This document shows, one piece after another, positions 175 to 46,535 of a stretch of 46,535 nt of DNA (positions within the stretch are counted from its first letter, which is position 1; each line of letters begins with the position of its first letter). This stretch comes from Saccoglossus kowalevskii. Its lineage: Eukaryota > Hemichordata > Enteropneusta > Harrimaniidae. The stretch covers positions 1-46,535 of the forward strand of contig NW_003108264.1 of NCBI RefSeq assembly GCF_000003605.2, read 5' to 3'. The position numbers and the translations under genes are program-made. Below the pieces are notes generated by a model. That model ran no database searches. It was not told the DNA's origin and saw only the letters and a list, made by a program, of their open reading frames with translations.

Positions 175-250
175 AAGTCAAGCTCAGTCGGGCCTGGTTA
201 GTTCTTGCATGGGAGACTGCCTGAGAAAACCAGCTAGGGAATTTTTTTTT
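175..250 (+). pseudogene. 5S rRNA relic, best-preserved class (unit 1)
   Basis: From AAGTCAAGC at 175 the sequence aligns without gaps to about positions 49-105 of vertebrate 5S rRNA as I recall it, roughly 47 of 57 bases identical. This covers the three parts of the internal control region bound by TFIIIA: box A region, intermediate element (TCGGGCCTGG, unchanged) and box C (three changes in TACTTGGATGGGAGACCG). The 5' half of 5S and the closing helix I are absent, so it cannot make a working 5S rRNA. Nine Ts follow, as at a Pol III terminator. Units 2, 12, 13, 19, 36 and 49 carry this same form. Whether it is transcribed is unknown. Confidence 0.85.
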
Positions 251-1120
251 GGTTTCATCACATACATATCAAACATATGACAGAATGTTCGTGCATCTTT
301 TTTCACTGTGATGTAAATTATTTTTACTACAGAAACATGGAAATTTAAGCATGTTTTCAAGTTCATGAACATTTTTCGAATTTCTCTATTATTTTTGGAG
401 ATCAAGTTGGTGATGATGTCGGCACATACTGGGGTTTGACCTGTTAACGTACAGTGAAAAGTCGTACAAAGTGAAAGCAAAGTTGTGCAAAGTGATTGGA
501 AAGTTTGTAGATATATTTGTATGCATGACCTAACTTGTTGGCATATAGAAACCCGCAGTTGTAAAGTCAAATAAATGAATAAAAGCGAGATGAAAACAGC
601 CTATATAAGCAGAGTATCACATGAGCTGACTGACCGTAAAAATGATAGAAAACAGCATGAAAAGTTGGTAAAAGCGTGCGAAACGTTGGCGGAGTTACAT
701 GTATATTTAACCTAAGTCATTGGAAATGCCAACCCCGCAGTTAAATTTCAAATATTAAGTAAAGTCAGAAAATACCAGATATATAGCAGATTATGGCACT
801 GCAAACCGAAATGGAAGACAAACTGCTGCAAAGTTTTGAAAGCGATTGCCAAAGTTGTAGATCGTTTGGGAATGTTACATATGATATATATGACGGGTTC
901 CATAGTCAAAAGTTCGAAAACGTAAAAAAAATATTTCGTAAATTGCTCTTTAAGTTGCGTACTATTATTCGCAGCATGTAGAGGTCATAGGTCAATTCAA
1001 GAAGTTACTGGTACAAACGCTATCAAGTTTAAAACAGTGTCAAACATGAAATAGTCGCCAATTCAAGTATATTTCAAATTGCGTGAGCAGTAGTGTGGGT
1101 AGGTGAAGAGACCAAGTTTA
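175..1120 (+). repeat. Repeat unit 1 (946 bp)
   Basis: The 5S-like head is 175-250, with the ancestral GGGCCTGG form and nine Ts. M3 (about 780-910) has lost many single bases. From about 800 on it shares rare variants (ATGGAAGAC, TGCTCTTTAAGTTGCG) with the end of unit 35. Confidence 0.95.
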
Positions 1121-2072
1121 AAGTCAAGCTCAGTCGGGCCTGGTTAGTTCTTGCATGGGAGACTGCCTGAGAAAACCAGCTAGGGAATTTTTTTTATTTC
1201 ATCACATACATATCAAACATATGACAAAATCTTCGTGCATCTTTTTCACTGTGATGTAAATTATTTTTAGTAGAAAAACATGGAAATTTAGGCATGTTGT
1301 CAAGTTCATGAACATTTTTCCAATTTCTCTATTATTTTTGGAGATCAAGTTGGTGATGATGTCGGCACATAGTGGGGTTTGACCTGTTAACGTACAGTGA
1401 AAAGTCGTACAAAGTGAACGCAAAGTTGTGCAAAGTGATTGGAAAGTTTGTAGATATATTTGTATGTTTGACCTAACTTGTTGGCATATAGAAACCCGCA
1501 GTTGTAAAGTCAAATAAATGAATAAAATCTAGATGAAAACAGCCTATATAAGCAGAGTATCACATGAGCTGACTGACCGTAAAAATGATAGAAAACAGCA
1601 TGAAGATTTGGTAAAAGCGTGCGAAACGTTGGCGGAGTTACATGTATATTTAACCTAAGTGATTGGAATGCCAACCCCGCAGTTAAATTTCAAAAACATT
1701 AAGTAAAAGTCAAGAAAATGCCAGATATATAAGCAGATTATGGCAACTGCAAACCGAAAATCGAAGACAAACTGCTTTCAAAGTTTTGAAAAACGATTGC
1801 AAAGTTTATAGATTCGTTTGGGAATGTTACATATGATATTATATTGACGGGTTACATAGTCAAAAGTTCGAAAACTTAAAAAAATATTTCGAAAATTGTC
1901 GTTAAAGTAGCGTACTATTATTCGTAGCATGTAGAGGTCATAGGTCAATTCAAGAAGTTACTCGTACAAATGCTATCAGTTTAAAACAGTGTCAAACATG
2001 AAATAGTCGCCAGATCGAGCATATTTCAAATTGCGTAACTAGTAGTGTTGGTAAGTGAAGAGACAAAGTTTA
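1121..2072 (+). repeat. Repeat unit 2 (952 bp)
   Basis: The 5S-like head is 1121-1195 with GGGCCTGG and eight Ts followed by ATTTC. The rare ACCAAGTTTA, ATGACAAAATCTTCG and CATGTTGTCAAG variants are found otherwise only in unit 36. Confidence 0.95.
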
Positions 2073-2147
2073 AAGTCAAGCTCAATCGGCATGGTTACTT
2101 CTTGCATGGGAGACTGCCTGAGAAAACCAGCTAGGGAATTTTTTTTT
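2073..2147 (+). pseudogene. 5S rRNA relic, one-base-deleted class (unit 3)
   Basis: This copy has lost one G in the intermediate element (TCGGCATGG) in addition to the C-to-A change. The deletion alters the spacing between the box A region and box C, which should weaken TFIIIA contact if that matters here. Units 4, 15 and 46 have the same form. These four are not neighbours except 3 and 4. Confidence 0.8.
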
Positions 2148-3028
2148 GGTTTCATCACATACATATCAAACATATGAGACAACGTTCGTGCATCTTTTTT
2201 TCACTGTAATGTCAATTATTTTTAGTAGAAAAACATGGAAATTTAGGCATGTTTTCAAGTTCATGAACATTTTTCCAATTTCTCTATTATTGTTGGAGAT
2301 CAAGTTGGTGATGATGTCGGCACATAGTGGGGTTTGACCTGTTAACGTACCGTGAAAAGTCGTACAAAGTGAACGCAAAGTTGTGCAAAGTGATTGGAAA
2401 GTTTGTAGATATATTTGTATGCTTGACCTAACTTGTTGGCATATAGAAACCCGCAGTTGTAAAGTCAAATAAATGAATAAAAGCGAGATGAAAACAGCCT
2501 ATAAAAGCAGAGTATCACATGAGCTGACTGACCGTAAAAATGATAGAAAACAGCATGCTATGTTGGTAAAAGCGTGCGAAACGTTGGCGGAGTTACATGT
2601 ATATTTAACCTAAGTCATTGGAATGCCAACCCCGCAGTTAAATTTCGAAAACATTAAGTAAAAGTCAAGAAAATGCCAGATATATAAGCAGATTATGGCA
2701 ACTGCAAACAGAAAATCGAAGACAAACTGCTTGCAAAGTTTTGAAAAACGATTGCAAAGTTTGTAGATTCGTTTGGGAATGTTACATATGATATTATATT
2801 GATGGGTTACATAGTCAAAAGTTCGAAAACTTAAAAAAATATTTCGTAAATTGCCGTTAAAGTAGCGTACAATTATTCGCAGCATGTAGAGGTCATAGGT
2901 CAATTCAAGAAGTTACTCGTACAAACGCTATCAGGTTTAAAACAGTGTCAAACATGAAATAGTCGCCAGATCGGACATATTTCAAATTGCGTAACTAGTA
3001 GTGTTGGTAGGTGAAGAGACAAAGTTTA
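2073..3028 (+). repeat. Repeat unit 3 (956 bp)
   Basis: The 5S-like head is 2073-2147. It reads TCGGCATGG, one G short in the intermediate element, and ends in nine Ts. M3 has the TGATGGGTTACATAG variant near 2800. Confidence 0.95.
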
Positions 3029-3985
3029 AAGTCAAGCTCAATCGGCATGGTTAGTTCTTGCATGGGAGACTGCCTGAGAAAACCAGCTAGGGAATTTTTG
3101 TTTTTGTTTCATCACATACATATCAAACATATGAGACAATGTTCGTGCATCTTTTTTTCACTGTAATGTCAATTATTTTTAGTAGAAAAACATGGAAATT
3201 TAGGCATGTTTTCAAGTTCATGAACATTTTTCCAATTTCTCTATTATTTTTGGAGATCATATTGGTGATGATGTCGGCACATAGTGGGGTTTGACCTGTT
3301 AACGTACCGTGAAAAATCGTACAAAGTGAATGCAAAGTTGTGCAAAGTGATTGGAAAGTTTGTAGATATATTTGTATGCTTGACCTAACTTGTTGGCATA
3401 TAGAAACCCGCAGTTGTAAAGTCAAATAAATGAATAAAAGCGAGACGAAAACAGCCTATATATGCAGAGTATCACATGAGCTGACTGACCGCAAAAATGA
3501 TAGAAAACAGCATGCAAAGTTAGTAAAAGTGTTCGAAACGTTCGCGGAGTTACATGTATATTTAACCTAAGTCATTGGAATGCCAACCCCGCAGTTAAAT
3601 TTCGAAAACATTAAGTAATTGTCTGGAAAATGCCAGATATATAAGCAGATTATGGCAACTGCAAACCGAAAATCGAAGACAAACTGCTTGCAAAGTTTTC
3701 AAAAACGATTGCAAAGTTTGTAGATTCGTTTGGGAATGTTACATATGATATTATATTGACGGGTTACATAGTCAAAAGTTCGAAAAGTTAAAAAAATATT
3801 TCGTAAATTGCCGATAAAGTAGAGCACTATTATTCGCAGCATGTAGAGGTCATAGGTCAATTCAGGAAGTTACTCGTACAAACGCTATCTGGTTTAAAAC
3901 AGTGTCAAACATGAAATAGTCGCCAACTCGAGTATGTTTCAAATTGCGTAAGCAGTAGTGTTGGTAGGTGAAGAGACAAAGTTTA
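3029..3985 (+). repeat. Repeat unit 4 (957 bp)
   Basis: The head is 3029-3105, again TCGGCATGG, and its T-run is split by a G (T5-G-T5). GGAGATCATATTGG near 3253 is shared only with unit 46. Confidence 0.95.
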
Positions 3986-4944
3986 AACTCAAGCTCAATC
4001 GGGCATGGTTAGTTCTTGCATGGGAGACTGCCTGAGAAAACCAGCTAGGGAAATTTTTTTTGGTTTCATCACATACATATCAAACATATTAGACAACGTT
4101 CGTCCATCTTTTTTCACTGTAATGTCAATTATTTTTAGTAGAATCACATGGAAATTTAGGCATGTTTTGAAGTTCATGAACATTTTTCCAATTTCTCTGT
4201 TATTTTTGGAGATCAAGTTGGTGATGATGTCGGCACATAGTGGGGTTTGACCTGTTAACGTAGCGTGAAATTTCGTCCAAAGTGAACGCAAAGTTGTGCA
4301 AAGTGATTGGGAAAGTTTGTAGATATATTTGTATGCTTGACCTAACTTGTTGGCATATAGAAACCCGCAGTTGTAAAGTCAAATAAATGAATAAAAGCGA
4401 GATGAAAACAGCCTATATAAGCAGAGTATCACATGAGCTGACTGACCGTAAAAATGATAGAAAACAGCATGCAAAGTTGGTAAAAGCGTGTGAAACGTTG
4501 GCGGAGTTACATGTATATTTAACCTAAGTCATTGGAATGCCAACCCCGCAGTTAAATTTTGAAAACATTAAGTAAAAATCAAGAAAATGCCAGATATATG
4601 AGCAGATTATGGCAACTGCAAACCTAAAATCGAAGACAAACTGCTTGCAAAGTTTTGAAAAACGATTGCAAAGTTTGTAGATTAGTTTGGGAATGTTACA
4701 TATGATATTATATTGACGGGTTCCATAGTCAAAAGTTCGAAAACGTAAAAAAAAATATTTCGTAAATTGTCGTTAAAGTAGCGTACTATTATTCGCAACA
4801 TGTAGAGGTCATAGATCAATTCAAGAAGTTACTCGTACACACGCTATCAGGCTTAAAACAGTGTTAAACATGAAATAGTCGCCAACTCGAGTATATTTCA
4901 AATTGCGTAACCAGTAGTGTTGGTAGGTGAAGAGACAAAGTTTA
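3986..4944 (+). repeat. Repeat unit 5 (959 bp)
   Basis: The head is 3986-4061, with AACTCAAGC in the box A region and eight Ts. The direct repeat in M4 is damaged (second half AGATCA, near 4814). Confidence 0.95.
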
Positions 4945-5902
4945 AAGTCAAGCTCAATCGGGCATGGTTAGTTCTTGCATGGGAGACTGCCTGAGAAAAC
5001 CAGCTAGGGAAAACTTTTTGGGTTTCATCACATACATATCAAACATATGAGACAACGTTCGTGCATCTTTTTTCACTGTAATGTCAATTATTTTTAGTAG
5101 AAAAACATGGAAATTTAGGCATGTTTTCATGTTCATGAACATTTTTCCAATTTCTCTATTATTTTTGGAGATCAAGTTGGTGATGATGTCGGCACATAGT
5201 GGGGTTTGACCTGTTAACGTACCGTGAAAAGTCATACAAAGTGAACGCAAAGTTGTGCAAAGTGATTGGAAAGTTTGTAGATATATTTGTATGCTTGACC
5301 TAACTTGTTGGTATATAGAAACCCGCAGTTGTAAAGTCAAATAAATGAATAAAAGCGAGATGAAAACAGCATATATAAGCAGAGTATCACATGAGCTGAC
5401 TGGCCGTATAAATGATAGAAAACAGCATGCAAAGTTGTTAAAAGTGTTCGAAACGTTGGCGGAGTTATACGTATATTTAACCAAAGTCATTGGAATGCCA
5501 ACCCCGCAGTTAAATTTCGAAAAAAACATTAAGTAATTGTCTGGAAAATGCCAGATATATAAGCAGATTATCGCAACTGCAAACCGCAAATCAAAGACAA
5601 ACTGATTGCACAGTTTTGAAAAACGATTGCAAAGTTTGTAGATTCGTTTGGGAATGTTACATATGATATTATATTGACGGGTTCCATAGTCAAAAGTTAG
5701 AAAACGTAAAACAATATTTCGTAAATTGCCGTTAAAGTAGCGAACTATTATTCGCAGCATGTAGAGGTCATAGGTCAATTCAAGAAGTTACTCGTACAAA
5801 CGCTATCAGGTTTAAAACAGTGTCAAACATGAATAGTCGCCAACTCGAGTGTATTTCAAATTGCGTAACCAGTAGTGTTGGTAGGTGAAGAGACAAAGTT
5901 TA
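4945..5902 (+). repeat. Repeat unit 6 (958 bp), longest open frame
   Basis: The head is 4945-5019, with AAAC before a run of only five Ts. At 5481-5486 CCAAAG replaces the usual CCTAAG. This removes a conserved minus-strand stop and leaves 4954-5778 open for 274 codons. Confidence 0.95.
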
Positions 5903-6854
5903 AAGTCAGCTCAATCGGGCATGGTTAGTTCTTGCATGGGAGACTGCCTGAGAAAACCAGCTTGGGATTTTTTTTTTTGTTTCATCCACATACATATCAA
6001 ACATATTAAGACAACGTTCGTGCATCTTTTTCACTGTAATGTCAATTATTTTAGTAGAAACACATGGAAATTTAGGCATGTTTCAAGTTCATGAACATTT
6101 TTCCAATTTCTCTGTTATTTTTGGAGATCAAGTTGGTGATGATGTCGGCACATAGTGGGGTTTGACCTGTTAACGTAGCGTGAAAAGTCGTACAAAGTGA
6201 ACGCAAAGTTGTGCAAAGTGATTGGAAAGTTTGTAGATATATTTGTATGCTTGACCTAAATTGTTGGCATATAGAAACCCGCAGTTGTAAAGTCAAATAA
6301 ATGAATAAAAGCGAGATGAAAACAGCCTATATAAGCAGAGTATCACATGAGCTGACTGACCGTAAAAATGATAGAAAACAGCATGCAAAATTGGTAAAAG
6401 CGTGCAAAACGTTGGCGGAGTTACATGTATATTTAACCTAAGTCATTGGAATGTCAACCCCGCAGTTAAATTTCGAAAACATTAAGTAAAAGTCAAGAAA
6501 ATGCCAGATATATAAGCAGATTATGGCAACTGCAAACCAAATCGAAGACAAACTGCTTGCAAAGTATTGAAAACCGATTGCAAAGTTTGTAGATTCGTTT
6601 GGGAATGTTACATATGATATTATATTGACGGGTTCCATAGTCAAAAGTTCGAAAACGTAAAACAATATTTCGTAAATTGCCGTTAAAGTAGCGTACTATT
6701 ATTCGCAGCATGTAGAGGTCATAGGTCAATTCAAGAAGTTACTCGTACAAACGCTATCAGGTTTAAAACAGTGTCAAACATGAAAAAGTCGCCAGATCGA
6801 GCATATTTCAAATTGCGTAAGCAGTAGTGTTGGTAGGTGAAGAGATAAAGTTTT
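5903..6854 (+). repeat. Repeat unit 7 (952 bp)
   Basis: The head is 5903-5978. One A is missing in the box A region (AAGTCAGCTC), CTTGGGA replaces CTAGGGA, and the T-run is the longest here (11). One-base indels cluster from about 5830 to 6095. M2/M3 variants at 6385-6575 match unit 25. Confidence 0.95.
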
Positions 6855-7809
6855 AAGTCAAGCTCAATCGGGCATGGTTAGTTCTTGCATGGGAGACTGC
6901 TGAGAAAACCAGCTAGGGAATTTTTTTTTGGTTTCATCACATACATATCAAACATATTAGACAACGTTCGTGCATCTTTTTTCACTGTAATGTCAATTAT
7001 TTTTAGTAGAAACACATGGAAATTTAGGCATGTTTTCAAGTTCATGAACATTTTTCCAATTTCTCTGTTATTTTTGGAGATCAAGTTGGTGATGATGTCG
7101 GCACATAGAGGGGTTTGACCTGTTAACGTAGCGTGAAAAGTCGTACAAAGTGAACGCAAAGTTGTGCAAAGTGATTGGAAAGTTTGTAGATATATTTGTA
7201 TGCTTGACCTAAATTGTTGGCATATAGAAACCCGCAGTTGTAAAGTCAAATAAATGAATAAAAGCGAGATGAAAACAGCCTATATAAGCAGAGTATCACA
7301 TGAGCTGACTGACCGTAAAAATGATAGAAAACAGCATGCAAAGTTGGTAAAAGCGTGCGAAACTTTGGCGGAGTTACATGTATATTTAACCTAAGTCATT
7401 GGAATGCCAACCCCGCAGTTAAATTTCGAAAACATTAAGTAAAAGTCAAGAAAATGCCAGATATATAAGCAGATTATGGCAACTGCAAACCGAAAATCGA
7501 AGACAAACTGCTTGCAAAGTTTTGAAAAACGATTGCAAAGTTTGTAGATTCGTTTGGGAATGTTACATATGATATTATATTGACGGGTTCCATAGTCAAA
7601 AGTTCGAAAACGTAAAACAATACTTTGTAAATTGCCGTTAAATTAGCGTACTATTATTCGCAGCATGTAGAGGTCATAGGTCAATTCAAGAAGTTACTCG
7701 TACAAACGCTATCAGGTATAAAACAGTGTCAAACATGAAATAGTCGCCAGATGGAGTATATTTCAAATTGCGTAACCAGTAGTGTTGGTAGGTGAAGAGA
7801 CAAAGTTTA
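6855..7809 (+). repeat. Repeat unit 8 (955 bp)
   Basis: The head is 6855-6929 with nine Ts. One C is lost just after box C (ACTGCTGAG instead of ACTGCCTGAG). Confidence 0.95.
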
Positions 7810-8766
7810 AAGTCAAGCTCAATCGGGCATGGTTAGTTCTTGCATGGGAGACTGCCTGAGAAAACCACCTAGGGAAATTTTTGTTGGTTTCATCACATAC
7901 ATATCAAACATATGAGACAACGTTCGTGCATCTTTTTTTCACTGTAATGTCAATTATTTTCAGTAGAAAAACATGGAAATTTAGGCATGTTTTCAAGTTC
8001 ATGAACATTTTTCCAATTTCTCTATTATTTTTGGAGATCAAGTTGGTGATGATGTCGGCACATAGTGGGGTTTGACCTGTTAACGTACCGTGAAAAGTCA
8101 TACAAAGTGAACGCAAAGTTGTGCAAAGTGATTGGAAAGTTTGTAGATATATTTGTACGCTTGACCTAACTTGTTGGCATATAGAAACCCGCAGTTGTAA
8201 AGTCAAATAAATGAATAAAAGCGAGATGAAAACAGCCTATATAAGCAGAGTATCACATGAGCTGACTGGCCGTATAAATGATAGAAAACAGCATGCAAAT
8301 TTGGTAAAAGTGTTCGAAACTTTGGCGGAGTTACATGTATATTTAACCTAAGTCATTGGAATGCCAACCCCGCAGTTAAATTTCGAAAACATTAAGTAAA
8401 AGTCAAGAAAATGCCAGATATATAAGCAGATTATGGCAACTGCAAACCGAAAATCGAAGACAAACTGCTTGCAAAGTTTTGAAAAACGATTGCAAAGTTT
8501 GTAGATTCGTTTGGGAATGTTACATATGATATTATATTGACGGGTTCCATAGTCAAAAGTTCGAAAACGTAAAACAATACTTTGTAAATTGCCGTTAAAT
8601 TAGCGTACTATTATTCGCAGCATGTAGAGGTCATAGGTCAATTCAAGAAGTTACTCGTACAAACGCTATCAGGTATAAAACAGTGTCAAACATGAAATAG
8701 TTGCCAGATCGAGTATAATTCAAATTGCGTAACCAGTAGTGTTGGTAGGTGAAGAGACAAAGTTTA
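7810..8766 (+). repeat. Repeat unit 9 (957 bp)
   Basis: The head is 7810-7882. It is the first of three adjacent copies (9-11) with ACCACCTAGG and a five-T run followed by GTTGG. Confidence 0.95.
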
Positions 8767-9723
8767 AAGTCAAGCTCAATCGGGCATGGTTAGTTCTTGC
8801 ATGGGAGACTGCCTGAGAAAACCACCTAGGGAAATTTTTGTTGGTTTCATCACATACATATCAAACATATGAGACAACGTTCGTGCATCTTTTTTTCACT
8901 GTAATGTCAATTATTTTCAGTAGAAAAACATGGAAATTTAGGCATGTTTTCAAGTTCATGAACATTTTTCCAATTTCTCTATTATTTTTGGAGATCAAGT
9001 TGGTGATGATGTCGGCACATAGTGGGGTTTGACCTGTTAACGTACCGTGAAAAGTCATACAAAGTGAACGCAAAGTTGTGCAAAGTGATTGGAAAGTTTG
9101 TAGATATATTTGTATGCTTGACCTAACTTGTTGGTATATAGAAACCCGCAGTTGTAAAGTCAAATAAATGAATAAAAGCGAGATGAAAACAGCCTATATA
9201 AGCAGAATATCACATGAGCTGACTGGCCGTATAAATGATAGAAAACAGCATGCAAAGTTGTTAAAAGTGTTCGAAACGTTGGCGGAGTTATATGTATATT
9301 TAACCTAAGTCATTGGAATGCCAACCCCGCAGTTAAATTTCGAAAACATTAAGTAAAAGTCAAGAAAATGCCAGATACATAAGCAGATTATGGCAACTGC
9401 AAACCGCAATTCGAAGACAAACTGCTTGCAAAGTTTTGAAAAACGATTGCAAAGTTTGTAGATTCGTTTGGGAATGTTACATATGATATTATATTGACGG
9501 GTTCCATAGTCAAAAGTTCGAAAACGTAAAACAATACTTTGTAAATTGCCGTTAAATTAGCGTACTATTATTCGCAGCATGTAGAGGTCATAGGTCAATT
9601 CAAGAAGTTACTCGTACAAACGCTATCAGGTATAAAACAGTGTCAAACATGAAATAGTCGCCAGATCGAGTATATTTCAAATTGCGTAACCAGTAGTGTT
9701 GGTAGGTGAAGAGACAAAGTTTA
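8767..9723 (+). repeat. Repeat unit 10 (957 bp)
   Basis: The head is 8767-8839, ACCACCTAGG with five Ts. It is nearly identical to unit 9 and differs by a few substitutions such as GATACATAAGCAG in M3. Confidence 0.95.
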
Positions 9724-10678
9724 AAGTCAAGCTCAATCGGGCATGGTTAGTTCTTGCATGGGAGACTGCCTGAGAAAACCACCTAGGGAAATTTTTGTTG
9801 GTTTCATCACATACATATCAAACATATGAGACAACGTTCGTGCATCTTTTTTTCACTTTAATGTCAATTATTGTCAGTAGAAAAACATGGAAATTGAGGC
9901 ATGTTTTCAAGTTCATGAACATTTTTCCAATTTCTCTGTTATTTTTGGAGATCAAGTTGGTGATGATGTCGGCACATCGTGGGGTTTGACCTGTTAACGT
10001 ACCGTGAAAAGTCATACAAAGTGAACGCAAAGTTGTGCAAAGTGATTGGAAAGTTTGTAGATATATTTGTATGCTTGACCTAACTTGTTGGCATATAGAA
10101 ACCCGCAGTTGTAAAGTCAAATAAATGAATAAAAGCGAGATGTAAACAGCCTATATAAGCAGAGTATCACATGAGCTGACTGGCCGTATAAATGATAGAA
10201 AACAGCATGCAAATTTGGTAAAAGTGTTCGAAACGTTGGCGGAGTTACATGTATATTTAACCTAAGCCATTGGAATGCCAACCCCGCAGTTAAATGTCGA
10301 AAACATTAAGTAATTGTCTGGAAAATGCCCGATATATTAGCAGATTATGGCAACTGCAAACCGCAAATGGAAGACAAACTTCTTGCAAAGTTTTGAAAAA
10401 TGATTGCAAAGTTTTAGATTCGTTTGGGAATGTTACATATGATATTATATTGACGGGTTCCATAGTCAAAAGTTGGAAAACGTAAAACAATATTCTGTAA
10501 ATTGCCGTTAAATTCGCGTATTATTATTCGCAGCATGTAGAGGTCATAGGTCAATTCAAGAAGTTACTCGTACAAACGCTATCAGGTTTAAAACAGTGTC
10601 AAACATGAAATAGTCGCCAGATCGGGCATATTTCAAGGGCGTAACCAGTAGTGTTGGTAGGTGAACAGACAAAGTTTA
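9724..10678 (+). repeat. Repeat unit 11 (955 bp)
   Basis: The head is 9724-9796, ACCACCTAGG with five Ts. The L segment carries the linked TTGAGGCATG and CACATCGTGG variants also seen in units 33, 35 and 47. Confidence 0.95.
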
Positions 10679-11635
10679 AAGTCAAGCTCAGTCGGGCCTG
10701 GTTAGTTCTTGCATGGGAGACTGCCTGAGAAAACCAGCAAGAATTTTTTTTTTGGTTTCATCACATACATATCAAACATATGAGACAATGTTCTTGCATC
10801 TTTTTTTCACTGTGATGTAAATTATTTTTAGTAGAAAAACATGGAAATTTAGGCATGTTTTCAAGTTCATTAAAATTTTTCCAATTTCTCTATTATTTTT
10901 GGAGATCAAGTTGGTGATGATGTCGGAACATAGTGGGGTTTGACCTGTTAACGTACCGTGAAAAGTCGTACAAAGTGAACGCAAATTTGTGCAAAGTGAT
11001 TGGAAAGTTTGTAGATATATTTGTATGCTTGACCTAACTTGTTGGCATATAGAAACCCGCAGTTGTAAAGTCAAATAAATGAATAAAAGCGAGATGAAAA
11101 CAGCCTATATAAGCAGAGTATCACATGAGCTGAGTGACCGTAAAAATGATAGAAAACAGCATGCAAAGTTGGTAAAAGCGTGCGAAACGTTGGCGGAGTT
11201 ACATGTATATTTAACCTAAGTCATTGGAATGCCAACCCCGCAGTTAAATTTCGAAAACATTAAGTAAAAGTCAAGAAAATGCCAGATATATAAGCAGATT
11301 ATGGCAACTGCAAACCGCAAATCGAAGACAAACTGCTTGCAAAGTTTTGAAAAACGATTGCAAAGTTTGTAGGTTCGTTTGGGAATGTTACATATGATAT
11401 TATAATGACGGGTTCCATAGTCAAAAGTTCGAAAACGTAAAAAAAATATTTCGTAAATTGCCGTTAAAGTAGCGTACTATTATTCGCAGCATGTAGAGGT
11501 CATAGGTCAATTCAAGAAGTTACTCGTACAAACGCTATCAAGTTTAAAACAGTGTCAAACATGAAATAGTCGCCAATTCAAGTATATTTCAAATTGCGTA
11601 ACCAGTAGTGTTGGTAGGTGAACAGACAAAGTTTA
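10679..11635 (+). repeat. Repeat unit 12 (957 bp)
   Basis: The head is 10679-10753, GGGCCTGG, ending CCAGCAAGAA and ten Ts. The CAAGAA ending, GTTCATTAAAATTTTTCC and GTCGGAACATAG occur together only here and in unit 13. Confidence 0.95.
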
Positions 11636-30695: not shown

Positions 30696-30772
30696 AAGTC
30701 AAGCTCAATCGGGCATGGTTAGTTCTTGCATGGGAGACTGCCTGAGAAAACCAGCTAGGGAAATTTTTTTTT
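30696..30772 (+). pseudogene. 5S rRNA relic, majority class (unit 33)
   Basis: This is the form in most units: TCGGGCATGG in place of TCGGGCCTGG, then GTTCTTGCATGGGAGACTG for box C and CCTGAGAAAACCAG for the following loop. It ends in nine Ts. The change is in the intermediate element, and the full 5S spacing is kept. Confidence 0.85.
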
Positions 30773-31455: not shown

Positions 31456-31652
31456 TAAAACAATATTTCGTAAATTGCCGTTAAAGTAGCGAACTATTAT
31501 TCGCAGCATGTAGAGGTCATAGGTCAATTCAAGAAGTTACTCGTACAAACGCTATCAGGTTTAAAACAGTGTCAAACATGAAATAGTCGCCAACTCGAGT
31601 ATATTTCAAATTGCGTAACCAGTAGTGTTGGTAGGTGAAGAGACAAAGTTTA
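31456..31652 (+). repeat. M4, diverged monomer leading into the 5S relic (reference unit)
   Basis: M4 opens with TAAAACAATATTTCGTAAATTGCC and then has the AGGTCA direct repeat, CGTACAAACG, and ends AAAGTTTAAAGTCCAA. The CGTACAAA and TAAAGTCAA blocks recall M1, but similarity is weak. The TAAAGTCAA ending overlaps the first bases assigned to the 5S relic, so the exact junction is uncertain. Confidence 0.5.
31514..31526 (+). promoter_or_regulatory. AGGTCA-T-AGGTCA direct repeat (DR1-like), one per unit
   Basis: Two perfect AGGTCA half-sites are separated by one base. This is the consensus recognised by RXR, HNF4 and COUP-TF type nuclear receptors in animals. Reading all 49 complete M4 segments (units 0-48), 43 are perfect. 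Units 5, 28, 31, 36, 43 and 44 are altered. Binding is not shown by the sequence; in a young array, conservation alone is weak evidence of function. Confidence 0.4.
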
Positions 31653-35476: not shown

Positions 35477-36433
35477 AAGTCAAGCTCAGTCGGGCATGAT
35501 TAGTTCTTGTATGGAAGACTGCCTGAGAAAACCAGCTAGGGAATTTTTTTTTTGGTTTCATCACATACATATCAAACATATGAGACAATGTTCGTGCATC
35601 TTTTTTTCACTGTAATGTCAATTATTTTTAGTAGAAAAACATGGAAATTTAGGCATGTTATCAAGTTCATGAACATTTTTCCAATTTCTCTGTTATTTTT
35701 GGAGATCAAGTTGGTGATGATGTCGGCACATAGTGGGGTTTGACCTGTTAACGTACCGTGAAAAGTCGTACAAAGTGAACGCAAAGTTGTGCAAAGTGAT
35801 TGGAAAGTTTGTAGATATATTTGTATGCTTGACCTAACTTGTTGGCATATAGAAACCCGCAGTTGTAAAGTCAAATAAATGAATAAAAGCGAGATGAAAA
35901 CAGCCTAAATAAGCAGAGTATCACATGAGCTGACTGACCGTAAAAATGATAGAAAACAGCATGCAAAGTTGGTAAAAGCGTGGTAAACGTTAGCGGAGTT
36001 TCATGTATATTTAACTAAGTCATTGGAATGCCAACCCCGCAGTTAAATTTCGAAAACATTAACTAAAAGTCAAGAAAATGCCAGATATATAAGCAGATTA
36101 TGGCAACTGCAAACCGTAAATCGAAGACAAACTGCTTTCAAAGTTTTGAAAAGCGATTGCAAAGTTTGTAGATTCGTTTGGGAATGTTACATATGATATT
36201 ATATTGACGGGTTCCATAGTCAAAAGTTCGAAAACGTAAAACAATATTTCGTAAATTGCCGTTAAAGTAGCGTACTATTATTCGCAGCATGTAGAGGTCA
36301 TAGGTCAATTCAAGAAGTTACTCGTACAAACGCTATCAGGTTTAAAACAGTGTCAAACATGAAATAGTCGCCAGATCAAGCATATTTCAAATTGCGTAAG
36401 CAGTAGTGTGGGTAAGTGAAGAGACAAAGTTTA
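35477..36433 (+). repeat. Repeat unit 38 (957 bp)
   Basis: The head is 35477-35553, with GCATGATTAGTTCTTGTATGGAAGAC, split as several private box C changes, and ten Ts. Confidence 0.93.
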
Positions 36434-37389
36434 AAGTCAAGCTCAATCGGGCATGGTTTGTTCTTGCATGGGAGACGGCTCGAGAAAACCAGCTAGGGAA
36501 ATTTTTTTGGTTTCATCACATACATATCAAACATATGAGACAACGTTCGTGCATCTTTTTTTCACAGTAATGTCAATTATTTTTAGTAGAAAAACATGGA
36601 AATTTAGGCATGTTTTCAAGTTCATGAACATTTTTTCCAATTTCTCTGTTATTTTTGGAGATCAAGTTGGTGATGATGTCGCACATAGTGGGGTTTGACC
36701 TCTTAACGTACCGTGAAAAGTTCGTACAAAGTGAACGCAAAGTTGTGCAAAGTGATTGAAAGTTTGTAGATATATTTGTATGCTTGACCTAACTTGTTGG
36801 CATATAGAAACCCGCAGTTGTAAAGTCAAATAAATGAATAAAAGCGAGATGAAATCAGCGTATATAAGCAGAGTATCACATGAGCTGACTGGCCGTAAAA
36901 ATGATAGAAAACAGCATGCAAAGTTGGTAAAAGTGTTCGAAACGTTGGCGGAGTTACATGTATATTTAACCTAAGTCATTGGAATGCCAACCCCGCAGTT
37001 AAATTTCGAAAACATTAAGTAATTGTCTGGAAAATGCCAGATATATAAGCAGATTATCGCAACTGCAAACCGCAAATCGAAGACAAACTGCTTGCAAAGT
37101 TTTGAAAAACGATTGCAAAGTTTGTAGATTCGTTTGGGAATGTTACATAAGATATTATATTGACGGGTTCCATAGTCAAAAGTTAGAAAACGTAAAACAA
37201 TATTTCGTAAATTGCCGTTAAAGTAGCGAACTATTATTCGCAGCATGTAGAGGTCATAGGTCAATTCAAGAAGTTACTCGTACAAACGCTATCAGGTTTA
37301 AAACAGTGTCAAACATGAAATAGTCGCCAACTCGAGTATATTTCAAATTGCGTAACCAGTAGTGTTGGTAGGTGACGAGACAAAGTTTA
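36434..37389 (+). repeat. Repeat unit 39 (956 bp)
   Basis: The head is 36434-36508, with GGTTTGTTC and GGAGACGGCTCGAG and seven Ts. One-base gains and losses cluster at 36630-36765. Confidence 0.95.
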
Positions 37390-38344
37390 AAGTCCAACTC
37401 AATCGGGCATGGGTAGTTCTTGCATGGGAGACTGCCTGAGAAAACCAGCTAGGGATTTTTTTTTGTTTCATCACATACATATCAAACATATGAGACAACG
37501 TTCGTGCATCTTTTTTTCACTGTAATGTCAATTATTTTTAGTAGAAAAACATGGAAATTTAGGCATGTTTTCAAGTTCATGAACATTTTTCCAATTTCTC
37601 TGTTATTTTTGGAGATCAAGTTGGTGATGATGTCGGCACATAGTGGGGTTTGAACTGTTAACGTACCGTGAAAAGTCGTACAAAGTGAACGCAAATTTGT
37701 GCAAAGTGATTGGAAAGTTTGTAGATATATTTGTATGCTTGACCTAACTTGTTGGCATATAGAAATCCGCAGTTGTAAAGTCAAATAAATGAATAAAAGC
37801 GAGATGAAAACAGCCTATATAAGCAGAGTATCACATGAGCTGAGTGACCATAAAAATGATAGAAAACAGCATGCAAAGTTGGTAAAAGTGTTCGAAACGT
37901 TGGCGGAGTTACATGTATATTTAACCTAAGTCATTGGAATGCCAACCCCGCAGTTAAATTTCGAAAACATTAAGTAAAAGTCAAGAAAATGCAAGATACA
38001 TAAGCAGATTATGGCAACTGCAAACCGCAATTCGAAGACAAACTGCTTGCAAAGTTTTGAAAAACGATTGCAAAGTTTGTAGATTCGTTTGGGAATGTTA
38101 CATATGATATTATATTGACGGGTTCCATAGTCAAAAGTTCGAAAACGTAAAACAATACTTTGTAAATTGCCGTTAAATTAGCGTACTATTATTCGCAGCA
38201 TGTAGAGGTCATAGGTCAATTCAAGAAGTTACCCGTACAAACGCTATCAGGTTTAAAACAGTGTCAAACATGAAATAGTCGCCAGAACGAGTATATTTCA
38301 AATTGCGTAACCAGTAGTGTTGGTAGGTGAAGAGACAAAGTTTA
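37390..38344 (+). repeat. Repeat unit 40 (955 bp)
   Basis: The head is 37390-37464, with the same AAGTCCAACTC and CATGGGTAG changes as unit 34 and nine Ts. Its M3/M4 instead match the segment before unit 20. Confidence 0.95.
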
Positions 38345-39301
38345 AAGTCAAGCTCAATCGGGCATGGTTAGTTCTTGCATGGGAGACTGCCTGAGAAAAC
38401 CAGCTAGGGAAATTTTTGTTTGTTTCATCACATACATATCAAACATATGAGACAACGTTCGTGCATCTTTTTTTCACTGTAATGTCAATTATTTTTAGTA
38501 GAAAAACATGGAAATTTAGGCATGTTTTCAAGTTCATGAACTTTTTTCCAATTTCTCTATTATTTTTGGAGATCAAGTTGGTGATGATGTCGGCACATAG
38601 TAGGGTTTGACCTGTTAACGTACCGTGAAAAGTCTTACAAAGTGAACGCAAAGTTGTGCAAAGTGATTGGAAAGTTTGTAGATATTTTTGTATGCTTGAC
38701 CTAACTTGTTGGCATATAGAAACCTGCAGTTGTAAAGTCAAATAAATGAATAATACCGAGATGAAAACGGCCTATATTAGCAGAGTATCACATGAGCTGA
38801 CTGGCCGTATAAATGATAGAAAACAGCATGCAAATTTGGTAAAAGTGTTCAAAACTTTGGCGGACTTACATGTATATTTAACCTAAGTCATTGGAATGCC
38901 AACCCCGCAGTTAAATTTCAAAAACGTTAATGAATTGTCTGGAAAATGCCAGATATATTAGCAGATTATCGCAACTGCACACCGCAGATCTAAGACAAAC
39001 TGCTTGCAAAGTTTTGAAAAACGATTGCAAAGTTTGTAAATTCGTTTGGGAATGTTACATATGATATTATATTGACGGGTTCCATAGTCAAAAGTTAGAA
39101 AACGTAAAACAATATTTCGTAAATTGCCGTTAAAGTAGCGAACTATTATTCGCAGCATGTAGAGGTCATAGGTCAATTCAAGAAGTTACTCGTACAAACG
39201 CTATCAGGTTTAAAACAGTGTCAAACATGAAATAGTTGCCAACTCGAGTATATTTCAAATTGCGTAACCAGTAGTGTTGGTAGATGAAGAGACAAAGTTT
39301 A
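38345..39301 (+). repeat. Repeat unit 41 (957 bp)
   Basis: The head is 38345-38417, five Ts then GTTTG, as in unit 20. L has GAACTTTTTTCC and CATAGTAGGG, shared with unit 43. Confidence 0.95.
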
Positions 39302-40257
39302 AAGTCAATCTCAATCGGGCATGGTTAGTTCTTGCATGGGATACTGCCTGAGAAAACCAGCTAGGGAAATTTTTTTTGTTTCATCACATACATATCAAAC
39401 ATATGAGACAACGTTCGTGCATCTTTTTTCACTGTGATGTCAATTATTTTTAGTAGAAAAACATGGAAATTTAGGCATGTTTTCAAGTTCATGAACATTT
39501 TTGCAATTTCATCTATTATTTATGGAGATCAAGTTGGTGATGACGTCGGCACATAGTGGGGTTTGACCTGTTACGTACCGTGAAAAGTCGTACAAAGTGA
39601 ACGCAATAGTTGTGCAAAGTGATTGGAAAGTTTGTAGATATATTTGTATGCTTGACCTAACTTGTTGGTATATAGAAACCCGCAGTTGTAAAGTCAAATA
39701 AATGAATAAAAGCGAGATGAAAACAGCCTATATAAGCAGAGTATCACATGAGCTGTCTGGCCGTAACATTGAAAGAAAACATCATGCAAAGTTGGTAAAA
39801 GTGTTTGAAACGTTGGCGGAGTTACATGTATATTTAACTTAAGTCATTGGAATGCCAACCCCGCAGTTAAATTTCGAAAACATTAAGTAAAAGTCAAGAA
39901 AATGCCAGAAATATAAGCGGATTATGGCAACTGCAAACCGAAAATCGAAGACAAACTGCTTGCAAAGTTTTGAAAAACGATTGCAAAGTTTGTAGATTCG
40001 TTTGGGAATGTTACATATGATATTATATAGACGGGTTCCATAATCAAAAGTTCGAAAACGTAAAACAATACTTTGTAAATTGCCGTTAAATTAGCGTACT
40101 ATTATTCGCAGCATGTAGAGGTCATAGGTCAATTCAAGAAGTTACCCGTACAAACGCTATCAGGTTTAAAACAGTGTCAAACATGAAATAGTCGCCAGAA
40201 CGAGTATATTTCAAATTGCGTAACCAGTAGTGTTGGTAGGTGAAGAGACAAAGTTTA
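39302..40257 (+). repeat. Repeat unit 42 (956 bp)
   Basis: The head is 39302-39377, CAATCTC and GGGATACTGCC, eight Ts. M2 reads GCTGTCTGGCCGTAACATTG, shared with unit 43. Confidence 0.95.
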
Positions 40258-41216
40258 AAGTCAAGCTCAATCGGGCATGGTTAGTTCTTGCATGGGAGAC
40301 TGCCTGAGAAAACCAGCTAGGGAATTTTTTTTTGGTTTCATCACATACATATCGAACATATGAGACAACGTTCGTGCATCTTTTTTTCACTGTAATGTCA
40401 ATTATTTTTAGTAGAAAAACATGGAAATTTAGGCATGTTTTCAAGTTCATGAACTTTTTTCCAATTTCTCTATTATTTTTGGAGATCAAGTTGGTGATGA
40501 TGTCGGCACATAGTAGGGTTTGACCTGTTAACGTACTGTGAAAAAGTCGTACAAAGTGAACGCAAAGTTGTGCAAAGTGATTGGAAAGTTTGTAGATATA
40601 TTTGTATGCTTGACCTAACTTGTTGGTATATAGAAACCCCGCAGTTGTAAAGTCAAATAAATGAATAAAAGCGAGATGAAAACAGCCTATATAAGCAGAG
40701 TATCACATGAGCTGTCTGGCCGTAACATTGAAAGAAAACAGCATGCAAAGTTGGTAAAAGTGTTCGAAACGTTGGCGGAGTTACATGTATATTTAACCTA
40801 AGTCATTGGAATGCCAACCCCGCAGTTAAATTTCGAAAACATTAAGTAATTGTCTGGAAAATGCCAGATATATAAGCAGATTATCGCAACTGCAAACCGC
40901 AAATCAAAGACAAACTGCTTGCAAAGTTTTGAAAAACGATTGCAAAGTTTGTAGATTCGTTTGGGAATGTTACATATGATATTATATTGACGGGTTCCAT
41001 AGTCAAAAATTAGAAAACGTAAAACAATATTTCGTAAATTGCCATTAAAGTAGCGAACTATTATTCGCAGCATGTAGAGGTCATAGATCAATTCAAGAAG
41101 TTACTCGTACAAACGCTATCAGGTTTAAAACAGTGTCAAACATGAAATAGTCGCCAACTCGAGTATATTTCAAATTGCGTATCCAGTAGTTTTGGTAGGT
41201 GAAGAGACAAAGTATA
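40258..41216 (+). repeat. Repeat unit 43 (959 bp)
   Basis: The head is 40258-40333, majority form, nine Ts. Extra single bases occur near 40545 and 40639. The M4 direct repeat is damaged (AGATCA, near 41085). Confidence 0.95.
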
Positions 41217-41289
41217 AAGTCAAGCTCTATCGGGCATGGTTAGTTCTTGCATGGGAGACTGCCTGAGAAAACCACCTAGGGAAATTGTT
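41217..41289 (+). pseudogene. 5S rRNA relic without a T-run (unit 44)
   Basis: The 5S-derived part is present, but the closing T-run reads TTGTTGTT. It is the only copy of the 49 without at least four consecutive Ts here. If the relics were transcribed by Pol III, this one should read through to the next T-run in the L segment, about 50 bp downstream. Confidence 0.8.
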
Positions 41290-42161
41290 GTTGGTTTCAT
41301 CACATACATATCAAACATATGAGACAACGTTCGTGCATCTTTTTTTCACTGTAATGTCAATTAATTTTAGTAGAAAAACATGGAAATTTAGGCATGTTTT
41401 CAAGTTCATGAACATTTTTCCAATTTCTCTATTATTTTTGGAGATCAAGTTGGTGATGACGTCGGCACATAGTGGGGTTTGACCTGTTAACGTACCGTGA
41501 AAAATCGTACAAAGTAAACGCAAAGTTGTGCAAAGTGATTGGAAAGTTTGTAGATATATTTGTATGCTTGACCTAACTTGTTGGTATATAGAAACCCGCA
41601 GTTGTAAAGTCAAATAAATGAATAAAGCGAGATGAAACAGCCTATATAAGCAGAGTATCACATGAGCTGACTGGGCCGTATAAATGATAGAAAACAGCAT
41701 GCAAATTTGGTAAAAGTGTTCGAAACTTTGACGGAGTTACATGTATATTTAACTAAGTCATTGGAATGCCAACCACGCAGTTATATTTGGAAAACATTAA
41801 GTAATTGTCTGGAAAATGCCAGATATATTAGCAGATTATGGGCCACTGCAAACCGCAAATCGAAGACAAACTGCTTGCAAAGTTTTGAAAAACGATTGCA
41901 AAGTTTGTAGATTCGTTTGGTAATGTTATATATGACGGGTTCCATAGTCAAAAGTTCGAAAACGTAAAACAATACTTTGTAAATTGCCGTTAAATTAGCG
42001 TACTATTATTCGCAGCATGTAGAGGTCATAAGTCAATTCATGAAGTTACTCGTACAAACGCTATCAGGTTTAAAACAGTGTCAAACATGAAATAGTCGCC
42101 AGATCGAGTATATTTCAAATTGCGTAACCAGTAGTGTTGGTGGGTGAAGAGACAAAGTTTG
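41217..42161 (+). repeat. Repeat unit 44 (945 bp)
   Basis: The head is 41217-41289, CTCTATC plus ACCACCTAGG, and is the only one whose T-run is destroyed (ATTGTTGTTGG). About eleven bases are missing in M3 near 41928, one-base losses cluster at 41625-41765, and the M4 direct repeat is damaged (AAGTCA). Confidence 0.95.
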
Positions 42162-43117
42162 AAGTCAAGCTCAATCGGGCATGGTTAGTTCTTGCATGGG
42201 AGACTGACTGAGAAAACCACCTAGGGAAATTTTTGTGGTTTCATTACATACATATCAAACATATGATACAACGTTTGTGCATCTTTTGTTCACTGTAATG
42301 TCAATTATTTTTAGTAGAAAAACATGGAAATTTAGGCATGTTTTCAAGTTCATGTACATTTTTCCAATTTCTCTATTATTTTTGGAGATCAAGTTGGTGA
42401 TGATGTCGGCACATAGTGGGGTTTGACCTGTTAACGTACCGTGAAAAGTCATACAAAGTGAACGCAAAGTTGTGCAAAGTGATTGGAAAGTTTGTAGATA
42501 TATTTGTATGCTTGACCTAACTTGTTGGCATATAGAAACCCGCAGTTGTAAAGTCAAATAAATGAATAAAAGCGAGACGACAACAGCCTATATAAGCAGA
42601 GTATCACATGAGCTGTCTGACCACAAAAATGATAGAAAACAGCATGCAAAGTTGGTAAAAGTGTTCGAAACGTTCGCGGAGTTACATGTATATTTAACCT
42701 AAGTCATTGGAATGCCAACCCCGCAGTTAAATTTCGAAAACATTAAGTAATTATCTGGAAAATGCCAGATATATAAGCAGATTATGGCAACTGCAAACCG
42801 TAAATCGAAGACAAACTGCTTTCTAGGTTTTGAAAAACGATAGCAAAGTTTGTAGATTCGTTTGGGAATGTTACATATGATATTATATTGACGGGTTACA
42901 TAGTCAAAAGTTCGAAAACTTAAAAAAATATTTCGTAAATAGCCGTTAAAGTAGCGTACTATTATTCGCAGCATGTAGAGGTCATAGGTCAATTCAAGAA
43001 GTTACTCGTACAAACGCTATCAGGTTTAAAACAGTGTCAAACATGAAATAGTCGCCAGATCGGGCATATTTCAAATTGCGTAACTAGTAGTGTTGGTAGG
43101 TGAAGAGACAAAGTTTA
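42162..43117 (+). repeat. Repeat unit 45 (956 bp)
   Basis: The head is 42162-42234, GACTGACTGAG and ACCACCTAGG, five Ts. L matches unit 37. M2 onward switches to the unit 3/4 set (GAGACGACAACAG, CGTTCGCGGAG). Confidence 0.95.
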
Positions 43118-44074
43118 AAGTCAAGCTCAATTGGCATGGTTAGTTCTTGCATGGGAGACTGCCTGAGAAAACCAGCTAGGGAATTTTTGTTTTGGTTTCA
43201 TCACATACATATCAAACATATGAGACAATGTTCGTGCATCTTTTTTTCACTGTAATGTCAATTATTTTTAGTAGAAAAACATGGAAATTTAGGCATGTTT
43301 TCTAGTTCATGAACATTTTTCCAATTTCTCTATTATTTTTGGAGATCATATTGGTGATGATGTCGGCACATAGTGGGGTTTGACCTGTTAACGTACCGTG
43401 AAAAATCGTACAAAGTGAACGCAAAGTTGTGCAAAGTGATTGGAAAGTTTGTAGATATATTTGTATGCTTGACCTAACTTGTTGGCATATAGAAGACCGC
43501 AGTTGTAAAGTCAAATAAATGAATAAAAGTGAGATGAAAACAGCCTATATAAGCAGAGTATCACATGAGCTGACTGACCGTAAAAATGTTACAAAACACC
43601 ATGCAAAGTTGGTAATAGCGTGCGAAACGTTGGCGGAGTTTCATGTATATTTAACCTAAGTCATTGGAATGCCAACCCCGCAGTTAAATTTTGAAAACAT
43701 TAAGTAAAAGTCAAGGAAAATGCCAGATATATAAGCAGATTATGGCAACCGCAAACCGCAAATCGAAGACAAACTGCTTGCAAAGTTTTGAAAAACGATT
43801 GCAAAGTTTGTAGATTCGTTTGGCAATGTTACATATGATATTCTATTGACGGGTTCCATAGTCAAAAGTTCGAAAACGTAAAAAAATATTTCGTAAATTG
43901 CCGTTTAGTAGCGTACTATTATTCGCAGCATGAAGAGGTCACAGGTCAATTCAAGAAGTTCCTCGTACAAGCGCTATCAGGTTTAAAACAGTGTCAAACA
44001 TGAAATAGTCGCCAACTCGAGAATATTTCAAATTGCGTAACCAATAGTGTTGGTAGGTGAAGAGACAAAGTTTA
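43118..44074 (+). repeat. Repeat unit 46 (957 bp)
   Basis: The head is 43118-43193, TTGGCATGG with a T-run split by G (T5-G-T4) as in unit 4. The M4 direct repeat is still perfect but with C as the spacer base. Confidence 0.95.
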
Positions 44075-45031
44075 AAGTCAAGCTCAATCGGGCATGGTTA
44101 GTTCTTGCATGGGAGACTGCCTGAGAAAACCACCTATGGAAATTTTTGTTGGTTTCATCACATACATATCAAACATATGAGACAACGTTCGTGCATCTTT
44201 TTTTCACTTTAATGTCAATTATTGTCAGTAGAAAAACATGGAAATTGAGGCATGTTTTCAAGTTCATGAACATTTTTCCAATTTCTCTGTTATTTTTGGA
44301 GATCAAGTTGGTGATGATGTCGGCACATCGTGGGGTTTGACCTGTTAACGTACCGTGAAAAGTCGTACAAAGTGAACGCAAAGTTGTGCAAAGTGATTGG
44401 AAAGTTTGTAGATATATTTGTATGCTTGACCTAACTTGTTGGTATATAGAAACCCGCAGTTGTAAAGTCAAATAAATGAATAAAAGCGAGATGAAAACAG
44501 CCTATATAAGCAGAATATCACATGAGCTGACTGGCCGTATAAATGATAGAAAATAGCATGCAAAGTTGTTAAAAGTGTTCGAAACGTTGGCGGAGTTATA
44601 TGTATATTTAACCTAAGTCATTGGAATGCCAACCCCGCAGTTAAATTTCGAAAACATTAAGTAAAAGTCAAGAAAATGCCAGATACATAAGCAGATTATG
44701 GCAACTGCAAACCGCAATTCGAAGACAAACTGCTTGCAAAGTTTTGAAAAACGATTGCAAAGTTTGTAGATTCGTTTGGGAATGTTACATATGATATTAT
44801 ATTGACGGGTTCCATAGTCAAAAGTTCGAAAACGTAAAACAATACTTTGTAAATTGCCGTTAAATTAGCGTACTATTATTCGCAGCATGTAGAGGTCATA
44901 GGTCAATTCAAGAAGTTACTCGTACAAACGCTATCAGGTATAAAACAGACTCAAACATGAAATAGTCGCCAGATCGAGTATATTTCAAATTGCGTAACCA
45001 GTAGTGTTGGTAGGTGAAGAGACAAAGTTTA
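44075..45031 (+). repeat. Repeat unit 47 (957 bp)
   Basis: The head is 44075-44147, ACCACCTATGG, five Ts. L and later segments match unit 11 (TTGTCAGTAG, TTGAGGCATG, CACATCGTGG). Confidence 0.95.
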
Positions 45032-45979
45032 AAGTCAAGCTCAATCGGGCATGGTTAGTTCTTGCATGGGAGACTGCCTGAGAAAACCACCTAGGGAAAT
45101 TTTTGTTGGTTTCATCACATACATATCAAACATATGAGACAACGTTCGTGCATCTTTTTTTCACTTTAATGTCAATTATTTTTAGTAGAAAAACATGGAA
45201 ATTTAGGCATGTTTTCAAGTTCATAAACATTTTTCCAATTTCTCTATTATATTTGGAGATCAAGTTGGTGATGATGTCGGCACATAGTGGGGTTTGACCT
45301 GTTAACGTACCGTGAAAAGTCATACAAAGTGAACGCAAAGTTGTGCAAAGTGATTGGAAAGTTTGTAGATATATTTGTATGCTGACTACTGTGGCATATA
45401 GAAACCCGCAGTCGTAAAGTCAAATAAATGAATAAAAGCGAGATGAAAACAGCCTATATAAGCAGAGTATCACATGAGCTGACTGCCCGTATAAATGATA
45501 GAAAACAGCATGCAAATCTGGTAAAAGTGTTCGAAACGTTGGCGGAGTTACATGTATATTTAACCTAAGCCATTGGAATGCCAACCCCGCAGTTAAATGT
45601 CGAAAACATTAAGTAATTGTCTGGAAAATGCCCGATATATTAGCAGATTATGGCAACTGCAAACCGCAAATCGAAGACAAACTTCTTGCAAAGTTTGAAA
45701 AACGATTGCAAAGTTTGTAGATCGTTTGGGAATGTTACATATGATATATATGACGGGTTCCATAGTCAAAAGCTCGAAAACGTAAAACAATATTTCGTAA
45801 ATTGCCGTTAAAGTAACGTACTATTATTCGCAGCATGTAGAGGTCATAGGTCAATTCAAGAAGTTACTCGTACAAACGCTATCAGGTTTAAAACAGTGTC
45901 AAACATGAAATAGTCGCCAGATCGAGCAAATTTCAAATTGCGTAAGCAGTAGTCTGGGTAGGTGAAGAGGCAAAGTTTA
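45032..45979 (+). repeat. Repeat unit 48 (948 bp)
   Basis: The head is 45032-45104, ACCACCTAGG, five Ts. Several bases are lost in M1 near 45383 (GCTGACTACTGTGGC), and one-base losses cluster in M3 at 45690-45755. Confidence 0.95.
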
Positions 45980-46535
45980 AAGTCATGCTCAGTCGGGCCT
46001 GGTTAGTTCTTGCATGGGAGACTGCCTGAGAAAACCAGCTAGGGAATTTTTTTTTGGTTTCATCACATACATATCAAACATATGAGACAATGTTCGTGCA
46101 TCTTTTTTTCACTGTAATGTCAATTATTTTTAGTAGAAAAACATGGAAATTTAGGCATGTTTTCAAGTTCATGAAAATTTTTCCAATTTCTCTGTTATTT
46201 TTGGAGATCAAGTTGGTGATGATGTCGGCACATAGTGAGGTTTGACCTGTTAACGTACCGTGAAAAGTCGTACAAAGTGAACGCAAAGTTGTGCAAAGTG
46301 ATTGGAAAGTTTGTAGATATATTTGTATGTTTGACCTAACTTGTTGGCATATAGAAACCCGCAGTTGTAAAGTCAAATAAATGAATAGAAGCGAGATGAA
46401 AACAGCCTATATAAGCAGAGTATCACATGAGCTAACTGACCGTAAAAATGATAGAAAACAGCATGCAAAGTTGGTAAAAGCGTGCATAAACTTTGGCGGA
46501 GTTTCATGTATATTTAACCTAAGTCATGGAATGCC
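45980..46535 (+). repeat. Repeat unit 49, cut by the window end (556 bp)
   Basis: The head is 45980-46055, AAGTCATGCTCAGTC with the ancestral GGGCCTGG and nine Ts. The window ends inside M2, just after the CATGTATATTTAACC stretch. Confidence 0.95.

Follow-up and report, generated by a model that had tools for sequence, protein, structure and literature searches.

Known 5S-derived satellites and the Saccoglossus kowalevskii array

Satellites derived from 5S ribosomal RNA (rRNA) genes are already known from other animals, including a mosaic with a partial 5S. The tandem array analysed here, on a contig of the hemichordate Saccoglossus kowalevskii (NW_003108264.1, positions 1 to 46,535, assembly GCF_000003605.2; C275 below), is a further well-resolved example: its units, most commonly 957 bp long, are headed by a 5S relic that retains 58 bp of the gene. 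By the window we mean this whole stretch of 46,535 bases, which is the entire contig (the assembly has 572,110,611 bases in 4,830 contigs). A longer unit with a 5S-like head is also found in 5S-headed short interspersed elements (SINEs) of the SINE3 class. Our unit differs from these in lacking the 5′ half of 5S and in the run of Ts that follows the head, and the copies read are tandem.

In the hagfish Eptatretus burgeri, the germline-restricted EEEb3 is described as a tandem mosaic whose unit of 379–438 bp combines a partial 5S with a SINE2-like part and GTA repeats, and Germ1 of the sea lamprey as a tandem repeat with a truncated 28S piece and a remnant of the R2 retrotransposon (PMC9734144). 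Compared with the descriptions in that source, the window resembles EEEb3 in having a partial 5S among unrelated parts of a tandem mosaic, and Germ1 in that its tandem repeat includes part of an rRNA gene, cut off at a fixed junction. It differs from EEEb3 in its unit of ~957 bp with ~181-bp monomers, known here from assembly sequence alone, and from Germ1 in that the piece is 5S, not 28S, and no retrotransposon was recognised in the unit. PcP190 of frogs is reported as a high-copy 5S-derived satellite with a ~190-bp unit and a 120-bp 5S-like region (PMC11675491; PMC4201667); the window unit keeps 58 bp of 5S in 957 bp and, by that account, is not of the PcP190 kind. In Hoplias malabaricus, 5SHindIII-DNA has a 360-bp unit with 95 bp of 5S and a remainder similar to the 5S spacer (PMC2713275). 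Our array is likewise a satellite with a partial 5S piece, but, set against that description, it is not spacer-derived, the remainder of its unit being unlike the species' own 5S spacers. Full-text searches of open-licence papers did not turn up this 957/938-bp satellite with its 58-bp promoter-only relic.

Our results point to a mosaic higher-order satellite with a single 5S capture, amplification and a relic that has since been passive, an explanation that we regard as probable as a whole.

The 5S relic and the species' own gene

The S. kowalevskii 5S reference was taken from the same assembly with Rfam RF00001. The own 5S genes lie in tandem on C3485, C2212 and C3801 and reach 105–113 bits (47 matches scored of 18,217 first-look candidates). 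Results showed that the consensus head of the array aligns with the own gene without gaps over 5S positions 49–106, with 48 of 58 positions identical and a score of 38, while 500 shuffles gave at most 16. The head of unit 1 aligned over the same positions, again gap-free, with 49/58 identities and a score of 40 (500-shuffle maximum 16). Comparison with 5S sequences of other animals agreed with this: scores against human 5S were 58–65 (maximum 26–27 in 300 shuffles), and the score against Drosophila 5S lay beyond all 300 shuffles. The significant match to the own gene places the array among 5S-derived satellites, distinct from the functional 5S arrays on C3485, C2212 and C3801, which have other spacers. 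The main features of the array on the window are as follows.

1..46535, + strand: 5S-headed satellite in tandem, with 48 complete units between two partial ones (the whole contig)
175..232, + strand: first 5S relic (5S positions 49–106; box A, intermediate element and box C region), matching the own 5S gene at 49/58 positions
242..250, + strand: T run after the first relic, from the window sequence
45980..46037, + strand: last (49th) 5S relic, with 47 others between at about 955-bp steps

The limits of the relic are nearly constant. Among 128 distinct heads from six contigs, all of which except C275 were selected by head match, 126 start at 5S position 49 and two at position 50, and 123 end at position 106. 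No trace of 5S positions 1–48 was detected in the unit, the best score being reached by 498 of 500 shuffles on the + strand and by 212 of 500 on the − strand, and the 5S 3′ end past position 106 is unrecognisable in the unit. In the region 50–95 bases past the head start, the longest T run measures at least 5 in 48 of the 49 heads and 3 in the remaining one. The earlier note, made from the letters of the window, had described just this: 49 of 49 heads matching 5S from about position 49, a missing 5′ half and at least four Ts in 48 copies. All three descriptions hold, the first by the alignment to the own gene that the note had proposed as a check. Some window units have G at 5S position 61. 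Lax Rfam matches to mir-1468, SNORD20 and others in the first 2.2 kb (E 0.47 or worse) were taken as chance.

Array architecture

With one head as the query, nhmmer detected 49 heads in the window, all on the + strand. The 48 complete units measure 920–960 bp, with 957 bp as the commonest length (16/48); compared pair by pair, with gaps included, they are on average 94.5% identical (range 87.7–99.0%). Similar units thus follow one another head to tail in a long array, as expected of a satellite, and the tandem arrangement of 5S-headed 957-bp units was correctly recognised in the earlier note. Its extent was set there at 175..46055; the array itself was confirmed, but the whole contig (1–46535), and not just that span, belongs to it.

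Adjacent units are slightly more similar to each other than the mean of all pairs (0.9496 vs. 0.9450), and none of 2,000 permutations reached that value, which fits unequal exchange or gene conversion. No higher-order period stood out among lags 1–24; the highest lag mean was that of lag 1, reached by 14 of 500 permutations. Tandem Repeats Finder reported only 21-bp sub-repeats in the window because its maximum period is 500. Open reading frames of 100 aa recur in the window since the units are copies of one another, and a Pfam scan of three of the 34 listed gave no match above the cut-off (best sub-threshold E 0.16). A tRNA search of the window found none. No CENP-B box core was found in the window with up to one mismatch allowed, which leaves a centromeric role undecided. 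An exact 29-mer of the head had no match in IMG/VR.

Remainder of the unit

The unit consensus holds three diverged ~181-bp monomers, at 202–368, about 371–552 and 553–727, and the strongest internal match is between consensus 289–335 and 647–693. Placed from the consensus onto unit 3, the monomers are located at:

2278..2444, + strand: monomer A (~167 bp)
2447..2628, + strand: monomer B (~181 bp)
2629..2803, + strand: monomer C (~175 bp)

In the other ~430 bp, around the relic, no monomer copy was detectable. The description of the unit as built of other monomers is therefore right for the three ~181-bp copies and does not extend to those ~430 bp. Ts are abundant throughout the unit: besides the run after the relic, five runs of 4–7 Ts lie at consensus 120–219 and one at 664. 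Of four comparisons between the unit and the own 5S spacers, one exceeded all 200 shuffles (34 vs. a maximum of 32), but it concerned a T-rich stretch of 31 bp and was discounted; the other three fell within their 200 shuffles.

Sister subfamilies carry the same relic

For the genome-wide counts below, only part of the repeats was scored or listed. Outside C275, we sampled 79,510 bases of array contigs. Contigs picked by head (six contigs, 30 loci) proved to be array wherever they were read. A 34-mer from the body of the unit matched the genome 1,353 + 329 = 1,682 times (up to 3 mismatches), while a 34-mer from the 957-type head matched it 477 times forward and 2 times in reverse, 479 in total (up to 2 mismatches). 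Within the window, the same body and head 34-mers were found in 46 and 45 of the 49 units, respectively. As both are near-complete there, most body copies in the genome must be without the 957-type head, and the idea that every body copy carries it was refuted by these counts. A pattern for the mosaic body gave 698 + 97 genome matches, with other contigs among the matches listed.

The relic was present in all four loci chosen by body and not by head (C482, C743, C3309 and C257). Its identity to the own gene over positions 49–106 was 44, 43, 48 and 48 of 58, and each locus showed the same relic junction followed by at least 8 Ts. The units of C482 and C743 are ~938 bp long and 76.0% identical to the 957 consensus. 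That so divergent a subfamily shares both the truncated relic and its junction places the capture before the split of the 957-bp and 938-bp subfamilies, and its recurrence in four of four loci makes one ancient capture the likeliest course. The common ancestral head reconstructed from these sequences would have 49/58 identities to the gene. The earlier note had suggested that a truncated 5S or a 5S-headed element was captured before amplification; our data favour the former, and the SINE3-like element finds no support. From the 34-mer counts multiplied by 0.94–0.96 kb, we estimate the body family at ~1.6 Mb, or ~0.3% of the assembly, a figure that misses divergent copies.

On C257, the array copy begins at about base 887,991 of the 889,210-base contig, so that one edge of an array against other sequence is visible. 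This edge at the contig end (C257:887300-889210) contains rearranged partial units; an apparent extension of 5S homology to position 17 in this copy spans a deletion and was not trusted. Units with an internal duplication or deletion (e.g., 894 bp) occur at loci on C4065 and C4116 and are signs of unequal exchange inside units. The 957-type heads are nearly all in one orientation (477 vs. 2) across separate contigs (C275, C859, C880, C1108 and others), which is perhaps an assembler artefact.

A second 5S-derived satellite of 216 bp

A 5S 3′-half pattern, in which five head-specific sites were left open and up to 3 mismatches allowed, gave 3,452 + 2,246 genome matches, with 0 for the backward control. 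Ten loci from C111 proved to be a different satellite, with 216-bp (sometimes 118-bp) monomers that each contain a whole 5S-like region; it was also listed on C242, C404, C554, C576 and C588. A consensus built from 61 monomers matches the 119-nt own gene at 109 positions, and the 5′ half of this satellite gave 2,190 + 2,011 = 4,201 matches (up to 3 mismatches; functional genes included). This second 5S-derived satellite, made of whole 5S-like pseudogenes in the same genome, is new here. It is like PcP190 (PMC11675491; PMC4201667) in plan only, namely a whole 5S-like region with a spacer. In two loci, 27 of its copies pass the Rfam 5S threshold at 44–89 bits, compared with at least 105 for the scored genes. 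Counts of 5S genes in such genomes can thus be badly inflated, of which annotators should be warned.

The flanks of the relic in the 957-bp unit showed no relation to the 216-bp spacer beyond shuffles; a first profile match that extended into the spacer fell when compared with shuffles. The presence of two 5S-derived satellites, one a mosaic and one with a whole 5S-like region, beside functional genes in one genome allows a side-by-side comparison. It makes testable whether satellites gain 5S pieces through recombination-prone 5S arrays or through a promoter that aids their persistence.

Origin of the relic and alternative explanations

We propose that a 58-bp 5S piece from the internal promoter region (positions 49–106) became linked, in a single event at the DNA level, to an unrelated AT-rich sequence holding three diverged ~181-bp monomers. 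The resulting composite of ~0.94–0.96 kb would then have been tandemly amplified, while unequal exchange or gene conversion kept its copies alike, and would have diverged into subfamilies, among them those of 957 bp and 938 bp, with the relic carried along and most likely without function now. As the source, a 5S gene and the 216-bp 5S-pseudogene satellite are equally plausible. Over positions 49–106 the gene and the 216-bp consensus differ only at position 61, where the gene has G; the relic has A in five of five subfamily copies compared, as in the satellite consensus. This one site hints at the 216-bp satellite as the source, and by itself it cannot decide between the two.

That hint counts against the gene as the source, and further observations weigh against the 5S match itself or against our explanation. 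Against the match, Rfam 5S had 0 matches at the gathering threshold in the whole window, and a lax search of the first 2,200 bases gave just 15.9 bits (E 7.1) for two of the three heads there. The covariance search proposed in the earlier note thus gave no match at threshold and a weak signal below it. By the same result the relic is not a functional 5S rRNA gene, which would be full length and pass RF00001, and failure in such a search is what one expects of a diverged half molecule. Against our explanation, the excess of body over 957-type head matches (1,682 vs. 479) speaks against a head on every unit. We ascribe the shortfall to diverged heads in other subfamilies, and the sister subfamilies explain it in part; headless units may exist, as only four body-picked loci were read. 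Finally, the conservation of the head between subfamilies and the persistence of the T run may be a mild hint of constraint.

The constraint question leads to the alternative that the relic is a living RNA polymerase III (Pol III) promoter or TFIIIA sink, recruiting TFIIIA/TFIIIC, so that the array would yield ~115-nt RNAs or buffer the factor. What has been retained coincides exactly with the internal promoter region, Ts follow in a run after 48 of 49 relics and after each of the four sister copies, and in conservation between subfamilies the head stands at the 88th (938), 94th (C3309) and 59th (C257) percentile. Within the array, in turn, the head is not conserved beyond its surroundings: among 58-bp stretches its diversity falls at the 45th percentile, and a second comparison likewise showed it to be average (0.032 vs. 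0.031). With the promoter elements (box A, intermediate element and box C) placed by Xenopus coordinates over 39 of the 58 relic positions, 7 of the 10 changes in the head consensus fall inside them, as by chance (Fisher p = 1). In RNA folding of two heads, 175 and 68 of 200 shuffles folded at least as well, and the six other T runs of the unit lessen the weight of the one after the relic. The suggestion of dispersed TFIIIA/Pol III sites or of a small RNA source, made in the earlier note, is hence unsupported by diversity, promoter changes and fold. A Pol III or TFIIIA role is possible, if unlikely, and judged from these patterns the relic is probably passive.

The 216-bp satellite bears on the same question. 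Between this consensus and the gene, 1/58 positions differ in 49–106 and 10/61 in the rest of the 5S part (p = 0.0086, post hoc), as with a kept promoter; present-day diversity within the satellite is no lower in 49–106 (6.5%) than in 1–48 (5.9%). On a bolder version, the same 58-bp 5S promoter would have been preserved independently by two unrelated satellites, in the 957/938-bp family as a bare fragment and in the 216-bp consensus as the single stretch left almost unchanged, with thousands of dispersed TFIIIA sites acting as a selected or selfish sink or as a Pol III-driven heterochromatin signal. If this were true, the promoter and not the rRNA would be the thing propagated by both, but we find it very doubtful.

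Two mobile-element origins can be set against a plain DNA-level capture. A 5S-headed SINE of the SINE3 kind, truncated and then tandemly amplified, would account for a longer unit with a 5S-like head at one end. The head, however, begins at 5S position 49, so that the complete 5S head with its 5′ end is absent, and the T run at once after it would terminate transcription by Pol III; inspection by eye, with no SINE library run, showed neither a SINE body nor an A tail, and body and dispersal were examined in part. Alternatively, a Mutsu-like 5S-targeting retrotransposon could have inserted in a 5S gene, the unit being the 3′ end of the element followed by what lies downstream of the insertion in the gene, a structure like that of Germ1 with R2 and 28S. 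A fixed break within 5S, non-5S sequence upstream and the 5S 3′ part downstream, common to each sampled subfamily, are what such an insertion would leave. Against it, the sequence past the relic is unlike the known 5S 3′ end or spacer, and the three unit reading frames searched have no protein family match besides the sub-threshold one at E 0.16. We consider the SINE3 origin highly improbable and give the retrotransposon equally little credence. That the 5S match is chance or reflects another Pol III gene, as the 15.9 bits of Rfam might suggest, has a negligible probability: the own-gene scores of 38–40 vs. at most 16 in 500 shuffles already refute it, the window has no tRNA, and a related full-length 5S satellite exists in the same genome.

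Observations beside the own 5S genes and on COX1

The two own 5S spacer types (units of ~1,139 and ~1,579 bp) are otherwise unlike and share one ~80-bp stretch with AAGAGGGCGCACCAC, ~90–170 bp downstream of the own 5S genes. We take this motif to be CTCF-like. Two short reading frames were the yield of 20 kb adjoining the C3485 5S array. On C4830, COX1 at 13523–14863 is of mitochondrial type: TGA encodes Trp, ATA occurs 10 times and AGA/AGG are absent; several of the ATA codons presumably fall at sites that are usually Ile.

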